Positions 13,472 through 15,442 of a stretch of 21,727 bases of DNA are shown here, in pieces. The stretch is taken from the IMG/VR virus record IMGVR_UViG_3300005738_000021, positions 1 through 21,727 of that record, one strand, 5' to 3'. The DNA is from a virus. Made by a program: the position numbers and the translations under genes. Position 1 is the stretch's first letter; each line of letters opens with the position of its first letter. Below the pieces are notes generated by a model, which saw only the letters and a list, made by a program, of their open reading frames with translations, was not told the DNA's origin and did not search any database.

Positions 13472-13849
13472 GTGAATCCCTTTAATTATGTAAACAGTAT
13501 TAATCTATCCAAGAAGGATATTATGCAATCTCCTGAAGATGAGAAAGCATATAATTCTTTTATGGTCAATCGTTCTTTATCCTATTTCTCTGATACAGTT
13601 GTCATTGCTAATGAAATGAACAGGTATCACCACTTAGATTCACGTCTACAATATCAATTTCTTATAAATATAATTAGGAAACGAAAACGTTTCTCTAAGT
13701 GGGTAAAACCTGAATTGGAAAATGACCTTGAGTCGGTAAAGAAATACTATGGATATAGCAATGAAAAAGCAAATCAAATCCTACCACTTCTCTCACCTTC
13801 TCAAAGACAAGAAATAAAGAACAAGGTGAATAAAGGTGGAAGAAAGTAA
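13472..13849 (+). CDS. 62: clamp loader small subunit gp62
   Basis: This 125-aa protein matches part of T4 gp62 (187 aa). YNSFMVNRSLSYFSDTVVIANEMN corresponds to T4 [24 protein letters not shown], and LDSRLQYQFLINIIRKRKRFSKWVK to the [21 protein letters not shown] region. It is shorter, as in marine relatives. It is the single delta-prime-like subunit that completes the gp44/62 loader. The start is a GTG at 13472 with GGAG 7 nt upstream. The C-terminus is basic (KNKVNKGGRK). The divergence and short length make the call less certain than for gp44. Confidence 0.8.
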   Translation: MNPFNYVNSINLSKKDIMQSPEDEKAYNSFMVNRSLSYFSDTVVIANEMNRYHHLDSRLQYQFLINIIRKRKRFSKWVKPELENDLESVKKYYGYSNEKANQILPLLSPSQRQEIKNKVNKGGRK

Positions 13850-13874
13850 ATTAGTATCATGGAGTCCAGTGAAT

Positions 13875-14246
13875 ATGTTAGAGATTACTCTAGCAGAACC
13901 AGACGACTTCCTAAAAGTTCGTGAGACATTAACACGTATCGGTGTCGCATCACGAAAAGAACAAAAACTATTTCAATCCTGTCATATCTTACATAAACAA
14001 GGACGATACTATATTGTCCATTTCAAAGAACTGTTTATGTTGGACGGTAAGAAAGCAAACCTAGAAGAAAGTGATGTGCAACGTAGAAATACTATTGCAA
14101 CATTGTTATCTGATTGGGGTCTGGTTGAAATACAAAATCCTAAGTCTGCACAAGATTGTGCTCCTCTAAGACAAATTAAAATCATTGGTTATAAGGATAA
14201 AGACGAATGGGAACTATGTCCTAAGTATAATATAGGAAATAAATAA
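13875..14246 (+). CDS. regA: translational repressor RegA
   Basis: The product follows T4 RegA (122 aa) almost end to end. MLEITLAEPDDFLKVRETLTRIG matches MIEITLKKPEDFLKVKETLTRMG, and QSCHILHKQGRYYIVHFKEL matches QSCHILQKKGLYYIVHFKEM. The end, WELCPKYNIGN, matches WKLVPKYTIGN. RegA binds start regions of early mRNAs (genes 45, 44, rpbA and others in T4) and blocks translation. The frame is open from a GTG at 13836, but the ATG at 13875 matches the T4 start exactly and has GGAG 10 nt upstream, so I use it. TAATG couples it to the next gene. Confidence 0.95.
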   Translation: MLEITLAEPDDFLKVRETLTRIGVASRKEQKLFQSCHILHKQGRYYIVHFKELFMLDGKKANLEESDVQRRNTIATLLSDWGLVEIQNPKSAQDCAPLRQIKIIGYKDKDEWELCPKYNIGNK

Positions 14247-14374: not shown

Positions 14375-14937
14375 TGATTGGGTTTAAGAATCATCTAGAA
14401 GAGATTCGTAACAAAAAGTATTGGTGGACTAAAGTAGACGTGGACTATGATTGGACACGGATGATTCATCTTATTGATACTCACCCACAAAATCTTTATG
14501 ATTGGAATCGTGAGAAACAACGATTAGGTCTTAATGCTTTTCATTCTCGTCCTTCTGCACCTAGCTTCGCAAAAGAAGTTGTCAATGAAATGATAACAAC
14601 TTTTGTTGACCCTGCACCCAAGAAGTTTGAATACGAGAAAGGAGAACCACAAATAACAAACATTGCGTTTGTTGGATTTGGTCAATACTCTGGTTCGTAT
14701 CCAAGACATAAAGACAGTATGGATGTCTTCTTAGTTCAAGTAATCAATAAATGCAAAATAACTATTGGGTATACCGAAGAACCTACCGATGAAGATGAGA
14801 CTGTTATTATGCAGCCAGGCGATGCAGTTTATCTTCCCAGAGGAACGTGGCACCAACTTCAACCTGAAGTATCAAGAGTAACTTTCTCGTTTGCTTTTGA
14901 AAGTGACCCAGATTCCGACCCTGCAACTTTTTTATAA
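14374..14937 (+). CDS. cupin/JmjC-like putative Fe(II) oxygenase
   Basis: The C-terminal half of this 187-aa protein has the cupin pattern of JmjC-type enzymes. YPRHKDSMDVFLVQV supplies His112-x-Asp114, VIMQPGDAVYLPRGTWHQL supplies the PGD turn and the distal His160, and VSRVTFSFAF is the last strand. Together these give the HxD...H iron triad. JmjC-like proteins of this kind can be protein hydroxylases; the substrate here is unknown. The N-terminal 90 residues are unmatched to me. It is the last gene of the regA operon. A promoter and leader for hsp20 follow. Confidence 0.65.
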   Translation: MIGFKNHLEEIRNKKYWWTKVDVDYDWTRMIHLIDTHPQNLYDWNREKQRLGLNAFHSRPSAPSFAKEVVNEMITTFVDPAPKKFEYEKGEPQITNIAFVGFGQYSGSYPRHKDSMDVFLVQVINKCKITIGYTEEPTDEDETVIMQPGDAVYLPRGTWHQLQPEVSRVTFSFAFESDPDSDPATFL

Positions 14938-14944
14938 AAAAAAC

Positions 14945-14976
14945 TTGAAATATAAAAATTAATCCTTATATATAGT
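14945..14976 (+). promoter_or_regulatory. probable promoter for hsp20
   Basis: TTGAAA at 14945-14950 is followed by overlapping -10 candidates: TATATA at 14967-14972 (16-bp spacer) and TATAGT at 14971-14976 (20-bp spacer). A start near 14979-14983 would give a leader of about 55-60 nt with two hairpins. Confidence 0.55.
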
Positions 14977-14979
14977 ATA

Positions 14980-15031
14980 GGAAGTGCCGAAGGTCGGGCT
15001 TCCATATTAATCTTGCTAAAAATTTAGGAGA
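14980..15031 (+). promoter_or_regulatory. ROSE-like RNA thermometer in the hsp20 leader
   Basis: The first hairpin is GGAAGT (14980-14985) with GCTTCC (14998-15003), extended by CC/GG with one bulged G. The second hairpin holds the ribosome site: TCTT-G-CTAA (15011-15019) pairs with TTAGGAGA (15024-15031), G15015 bulged and loop AAAT. The core TTGCT opposite AGGA with a bulged G is the defining U(U/C)GCU/AGGA motif of ROSE thermometers that control small heat-shock genes in proteobacteria. Only 8 weak pairs hold it, so it should melt with mild heat. Confidence 0.62.
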
Positions 15032-15037
15032 AAAAAC

Positions 15038-15442
15038 ATGACTAATACACTATTCCCTCGCTCAGCATTTATTGGATTTGACCATCTATTGAATGAACTG
15101 GAATACGCAACTAAACACGCAAACGACCACTATCCACCTCACAACATTGTGAAGGTCAAGGAAGAAGAATATTTGATTGAAGTTGCAGTAGCTGGTTTTA
15201 CCGAAAGCGGTATTGACGTAGAGCAAAAAGAACGTTCACTAACTATTAGTGGACAGTATGAATCTAAAGACAGAGAAGTGATTCACCGTGGTATTTCTAC
15301 GAAATCATTCAAACGTCAATTTAGATTATCAGAGTATGTTCAAGTAACTGGTGCATCTCTCAAAGACGGTATTCTTGCAGTAACACTGAAGCTAGAAATC
15401 CCAAAAGAGAAGCAGCCTCGTAAAATTAAAATAAAATCATAA
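15038..15442 (+). CDS. hsp20: small heat-shock protein Hsp20 (alpha-crystallin family)
   Basis: This 134-aa protein has the alpha-crystallin domain at about residues 33-125. HNIVKVKEEEYLIEVAVAGFTESGIDVEQKERSLTISGQYE is followed by ISTKSFKRQFRLSEYVQVTGASLKDGILAVTLKLEIP and an IxI-like C-terminal tail (KIKIKS). It is IbpA-like and should hold unfolding proteins in oligomers. Hsp20 genes are common in marine T4-like phages, where a role in virion assembly or host stress has been proposed. The ribosome site AGGAG is 8 nt upstream and paired in the candidate thermometer. The 26-aa membrane peptide behind it probably shares its mRNA. Confidence 0.93.
   Translation: MTNTLFPRSAFIGFDHLLNELEYATKHANDHYPPHNIVKVKEEEYLIEVAVAGFTESGIDVEQKERSLTISGQYESKDREVIHRGISTKSFKRQFRLSEYVQVTGASLKDGILAVTLKLEIPKEKQPRKIKIKS

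Follow-up and report, generated by a model that had tools for sequence, protein, structure and literature searches.

A predicted ROSE-type RNA thermometer in the leaders of phage hsp20 genes

We analysed 21,727 nucleotides of viral DNA (IMG/VR record IMGVR_UViG_3300005738_000021, positions 1 to 21,727; hereafter the window) that contain hsp20, a gene for a small heat-shock protein, and found an element of the ROSE family of RNA thermometers in front of this gene. The hsp20 mRNA very probably starts with a two-hairpin thermometer of the Pseudomonas ibpA (ROSE_3) type, which would be opened by warming and would have been inherited together with the gene. A preliminary description made from the sequence alone had proposed a ROSE-like element before this gene, and sequence, structure and covariation uphold it. 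What we computed is the element itself, where it lies, how far it is conserved and covaries, and that it is homologous to bacterial ROSE_3; from these we infer how it would act: repression in the cold, opening by heat, the use made of Hsp20 and transcription from a TATA-like box. Sequence comparison indicates that a ROSE element on hsp20 is the rule among the phages that we examined and not a single case.

Results

A ROSE_3 element in the hsp20 leader

When the whole window was searched with Rfam, the hsp20 leader matched ROSE_3 (RF02523) with a score of 44.5 bits, above the gathering score of 43 (E = 2.3e-6; E = 5.6e-10 when the record was searched for ROSE_3 alone). This was the sole Rfam match up to E = 1 in positions 14900-15100, where the ROSE and ROSE_2 models gave no match up to the same E-value. 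The leader also has the features by which ROSE_3 is recognized, namely two hairpins before the start codon of a small heat-shock gene, with hairpin I stable. Its minimum-energy fold consists of the expected two hairpins, each with a bulged G. The pairing proposed beforehand between TTGCT and the AGGA of the ribosome site, with one bulged G, flanking pairs and an AAAT loop, proved exact in coordinates and pairs, and the second hairpin was found directly upstream, as had been described, with a bulged G of its own (Table 1). Its core is UGCCG..CGGG. We rejected a fourU thermometer, as the strand facing AGGA reads UUGCU and has no run of four U.

Table 1 Positions of the hsp20 leader elements and neighbouring features in the window
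Feature	Position	Strand	Details
TATATATA box, candidate promoter element	14967-14974	+	T4 late TATAAATA-like or -10-like; just upstream of hairpin I
Whole ROSE_3 element	14978-15043	+	Rfam RF02523; match extends 6 nt into the hsp20 reading frame
Hairpin I	14980-15003	+	14980-14985/14998-15003 and 14987-14990/14994-14997; bulged G14986; loop 14991-14993
Hairpin II, presumed thermosensor	15011-15031	+	UUGCU 15013-15017 opposite AGGA 15026-15029; bulged G15015; outer pairs U15011-A15031, C15012-G15030, U15013-A15029, U15014.G15028; inner pairs C15016-G15027, U15017-A15026, A15018-U15025, A15019-U15024; loop AAAU 15020-15023
AGGAG Shine-Dalgarno site of hsp20	15026-15030	+	From sequence; 7 nt 5' of the ATG
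hsp20, class A small heat-shock protein, 134 aa	15038-15442, ATG 15038	+	Pfam HSP20, PHROG 432, 7ck4
regA	13836-14246		About 0.8 kb upstream of the hsp20 element
ORF of 248 aa	15575-16321		Between hsp20 and tRNA-Glu; no Pfam or PHROG match

Conservation and covariation among close relatives

Close relatives of the window Hsp20 are encoded at 80 IMG/VR loci, and those of their leaders that lie inside a contig follow the same plan with different stems. We aligned 37 distinct close leaders with MAFFT, using sequence only, and then ran RNAalifold. The consensus reproduced exactly this two-hairpin fold, including the bulged G of each hairpin, and 8 of the 15 pairs showed compensatory changes. In this alignment 97.4% of cells were paired and 44 double changes were counted, against 8.4 in shuffles, and none of 500 shuffles reached the real alignment on any measure. 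Structures slid along the alignment paired in only 31-53%. The UUGC..AGGAG core was unchanged among the close relatives while its flanking pairs were compensated, for example from AUCUUGCU..AGGAGAU to AACUUGCU..AGGAGUU in three leaders (L068, L073 and L080). The compensatory changes anticipated for related leaders, with UYGCU kept opposite AGGA, were thus seen in both hairpins. It is this comparison, and not folding energy, that marks the leader as more than chance.

The element across phage hsp20 leaders

The same plan can be recognized by eye in hsp20 leaders of isolated phages of Synechococcus, Prochlorococcus, Pelagibacter, Methylophilales, Sinorhizobium, Agrobacterium and Pseudomonas. A covariance model trained only on the 37 window-family leaders (R1) found 68 matches (E of up to 1) in 70 other hsp20 loci, each of them on the strand of hsp20, and 54 in 74 further loci; 67 of the 68 and 51 of the 54 ended at the hsp20 start called by our script. 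The four others are in L089, where the start is mis-called and the element ends at an ATG inside the annotated open reading frame (ORF), and in L239, L248 and L267 (see below). Some of these matches are weak (E of 0.01 to 1) and count by position, not by E-value.

We built a wider model (R2) from 100 matches, two of which (L267:1944 and L002:4252) are probably not elements; locus L267 has a second, weak R1 match before the next gene. Hairpin I, with compensatory changes at 5 of 7 pairs in the 37 close leaders, showed them at all 7 in the 100 matches, whose alignment was fitted to the model. The core pairs of hairpin II in these rows were U-A in 98, U.G in 74 or C-G in 24, C-G in 99 and U-A in 97. 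Across 20 phage records of 54-490 kb, including cyanophages, pelagiphages, Melnitz and jumbo phages, R2 gave one significant match in each record, always the hsp20 leader, and a single extra match (E = 0.94). Four of these records (W06, W11, W13 and W15; phages HTVC115P, P-TIM68, Atu_ph07 and P-SSM7) were absent from the R2 training alignment.

A model-free count gave the same picture. We looked for U(U/C)GC(U/C) in the 24 nt that precede the ribosome site: 198 of the 210 distinct hsp20 leaders have it, as against 6 of 343 leaders of control genes from the same loci. The preliminary description would have been contradicted by related phages that keep the gene and lose the pairing; 198 of these 210 leaders retain UYGCY. 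Several of the others are explained by wrongly called starts, or by operons whose element precedes an upstream ORF.

In Prochlorococcus phage P-HM1 (L101), the annotated GTG start (L101:439) falls within hairpin I; the hsp20 start is likely the ATG about 50 nt downstream, after AGGAG. The ROSE element can thus correct start-codon calls. In two loci (L239:1188-1250 and L248:1179-1241), the element stands before a short ORF of about 70-80 aa that looks phasin-like by eye; hsp20 follows immediately and has a plain ribosome site. Six pelagiphage-like leaders (L215, L219, L222, L225, L229 and L230) keep hairpin II and have a CAACAA-rich linker in place of hairpin I; the model matches hairpin II alone in most of them, and they are possibly single-hairpin or displaced ROSE elements. 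Four loci (L236, L240, L243 and L265) have a variant core, ACGCUUAACGGAGG, in place of UYGCU..AGGAG. The leaders of some diverged Hsp20s (L316 and L326, and also L328) lack UYGCU; instead, a different short inverted repeat (GUUGUCGUCUAAGGAGACAAC) surrounds the ribosome site and may be a thermometer of another type.

Proposed mechanism and folding energies

In Pseudomonas, the two-hairpin element is heat-responsive by experiment; hairpin II by itself is enough for heat-dependent translation, and hairpin I does not open (PMC3669281). By homology with that element, hairpin II of the phage leader would hide AGGAG by pairing it with U(U/C)GCU, one G being bulged, and hairpin I would serve as a stable folding or spacing element; in the nearest-neighbour model, hairpin I remains paired (0.97 or higher) at temperatures up to 50 °C. 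Ribosomes would mostly be kept off at normal growth temperature, and warming would loosen the weak hairpin II so that Hsp20 is made, as in other members of the ROSE family. The chaperone might then keep proteins of phage or host from aggregating, perhaps while virions are assembled. Transcription may run from the TATA-like box just upstream, with a start near 14980. Of 242 hsp20 leaders, 108 have the motif TATA[AT]ATA in the region 50-105 nt before the start codon, as against 2 of 367 control leaders; a sigma-70 scan listed no promoter at the box.

Several points count against this reading. Its folding energy is only mildly unusual (z = -2.44), and opening the ribosome site costs no more than in shuffled leaders, as 379 of 500 shuffles cost as much or more. 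The nearest-neighbour fold keeps the site mostly closed with barely any change from 5 to 50 °C (probability of 0.01-0.03 that all five bases are open) and without a sharp melt. Across phages, predicted site accessibility differs only modestly from that of controls (median 0.33 versus 0.47 at 20 °C). Most relatives also fall below the Rfam cut-off, which none of 30 relatives' loci reaches and beneath which 12 of 23 records match. Finally, heat is perhaps not the main input, because open-ocean hosts meet small temperature swings. The folding energies, for their part, neither prove nor refute sensing, because the non-canonical pairs of ROSE elements and competition with ribosomes lie outside the energy model. 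The predicted energy of hairpin II is -3.0 kcal/mol in the window, with a median of -2.2 in 98 aligned leaders and values of -4.2 to -4.9 in three bacterial leaders that the same models had found; a weaker phage hairpin II would suit lower working temperatures.

Alternative explanations

It is possible, if doubtful, that the leader is mainly a landing site for free Hsp20, which would block translation: aggregates would draw Hsp20 away and translation would start, so that the switch responds to protein aggregation instead of temperature, or to the two together. In E. coli, IbpA acts on its 5' leader in this way, binding it and repressing translation; Arg93 is essential and R93K destroys the repression (PMC10474464). 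The UGCC..GGG core of hairpin I, which is dispensable for thermosensing in Pseudomonas (PMC3669281), is kept across phages, as a binding site might be. The residue equivalent to Arg93 is Arg in 191 of 230 distinct phage Hsp20 proteins, whereas the window Hsp20 has Lys there (GISTKSF), like 36 of the 230. Self-repression is therefore plausible for most phages and less so for the window phage. We presume that this position is the equivalent one on the basis of the E. coli IbpA sequence and the spacing of R93, R97 and K98, not of an alignment.

We consider it improbable that the structure is kept for mRNA stability or for a constant low rate of translation, with no sensing. With the TATA-like box directly before it, hairpin I may begin the transcript or lie close to its 5' end, a place where hairpins protect mRNA, and the folding energies show no sharp melt. 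Neither role, however, would explain why the bulged-G U(U/C)GCU/AGGA core is invariant (97-99 of 100 rows) amid changing surroundings, or why the element is confined to hsp20.

Far less credible is an operator for the phage translational repressor RegA. The regA gene lies nearby, and hsp20 directly follows it in several cyanophages, but the element also occurs in bacterial ibpA leaders outside phages, and RegA sites in T4 are unstructured and near start codons. A chance resemblance in an AT-rich leader, to which the unexceptional opening cost among shuffles might point, is ruled out by the covariation, the blind model matches and the contrast of 198 of 210 hsp20 leaders with 6 of 343 control leaders.

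Bacterial counterparts and origin

Run against 150 Pseudomonadota genomes, R2 gave five matches, one of them in a genome that had supplied a training row, and these bacterial matches stand before hsp20. The two strongest of the others (G076 and G152) are in the only two genomes with ROSE_3 above the gathering score. That the phage model extends to the ROSE elements of bacterial ibpA makes common descent more probable than parallel evolution. The preliminary description had left open whether the element was captured with the gene or evolved in parallel; the agreement of the phage and Rfam models on the same ibpA leaders favours the former, and we judge parallel evolution unlikely, given that the hairpin I core AUGCCGAA..UCGGGU is also shared with bacterial ROSE_3. 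Of the bacterial class A hsp20 leaders closest to the window protein, most have U(U/C)GCU ahead of the ribosome site, and the switch therefore appears to be an old companion of class A Hsp20. A first scan of genome contigs with the window protein had returned no bacterial relative.

In a maximum-likelihood tree, 36 bacterial Hsp20s formed one group (100/97) separate from the phage sequences. The deep phage branches are weakly supported, so the tree does not fix the number of hsp20 captures. Contigs assigned to SAR11 and MarineAlpha (L102, L103 and L104) and to a Bacteroidetes bin (L106) have a ROSE leader, and their Hsp20s group among phages in the tree; these are phage contigs in bins, or genes exchanged between phages and marine bacteria.

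The simplest reading of these sequences is that the phage lineage inherited gene and leader together, in line with a published study which concluded that cyanophage hsp20 derives from a class A bacterial source rather than from the cyanobacteria (PMC3827213). More tentatively, the ROSE element and hsp20 might form an ancient phage cassette, a single long-diverged lineage in myoviruses, podovirus-like pelagiphages and jumbo phages of proteobacteria and cyanobacteria. Its switch would have been kept even in hosts without ROSE or, as with Prochlorococcus, without a small heat-shock protein. Temperature and free Hsp20 could both be inputs to the leader in most of these phages, with more chaperone being made whenever heat, or a burst of virion proteins, occupies the available Hsp20.

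Genomic context

The window is part of a T4-like marine myovirus genome. Family matches identify a UvsW-like helicase, a clamp loader, RegA, the DNA polymerase gp43 and Hsp20, and a tRNA-Glu is encoded; other genes are presumably a gp47/46-like nuclease pair and a sliding clamp, which we named from ORF order and T4 synteny. The hsp20 ORF matches Pfam HSP20 (1.9e-16), PHROG 432 'Hsp20 heat shock protein' (3.3e-34) and a phage-type Hsp20 of known structure, 7ck4 (E = 2e-18). Its neighbourhood near regA is common to several cyanophages and C48C1.

Discussion

The hsp20 gene is a core gene of cyanophages (PMC3037559), and 417 records in the phage collection have a relative of the window Hsp20. One of the best-conserved auxiliary genes of abundant ocean phages thus appears to be under RNA-level control that annotation has missed. 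The conservation of the element suggests that phages commonly hold hsp20 translation back until heat or protein stress unlocks the mRNA. It also suggests that a proteobacterial RNA switch enters cyanobacterial hosts with the phages, a statement that rests, as regards those hosts, on PMC3827213. With the element one could test directly how infection is tuned by temperature or proteotoxic stress, and its many natural variants, which differ in loops and stem strengths, are material for studies of thermometer tuning.

What we describe is apparently a known RNA family in an undescribed and general setting, its location and generality being new. In the literature that we searched (open-licence PubMed Central, where absence is not proof), we found no phage ROSE element and no thermometer on a phage hsp20 gene; a paper devoted to the small heat-shock proteins of marine phages makes no mention of it.

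As with the thermometers of lambda, in a gene that we take to be cIII, of SPbeta blyA and of a Caudoviricetes sigma-70 gene, the element would place a phage gene under temperature control through its mRNA. Unlike it, those three are single cases with other motifs on other genes, and none has been described as ROSE or lies on hsp20. They are the phage RNA thermometers listed in the papers that we found, namely lambda, SPbeta blyA (fourU) and the Caudoviricetes sigma-70 leader (fourU) (PMC11182007, PMC10586365). The thermometer of cyanobacterial hsp17 (PMC4477652) likewise controls a gene for a small heat-shock protein, and does so in the phylum that cyanophages infect, but cyanobacterial small heat-shock proteins are class B and cyanophage ones class A (PMC3827213). 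The longer ROSE and ROSE_2 elements of alpha- and gammaproteobacteria share the U(U/C)GCU/Shine-Dalgarno core and the gene class, and unlike the phage element they are described with three or four hairpins (PMC3669281).

The closest counterpart is the Pseudomonas ibpA ROSE_3 element (PMC3669281), which likewise has two hairpins in about 60 nt directly before a class A small heat-shock gene. Hairpin I of the phage element has the core of the Rfam consensus, and hairpin II sets U(U/C)GCU opposite AGGA with a bulged G, as in ROSE_3. The phage element differs in lying in a phage genome, in its weaker predicted hairpin II and in that most of its versions score under the Rfam cut-off. Whereas the Pseudomonas leaders have sigma-32-like promoters, the phage leaders are likely driven by phage or TATA-like promoters.
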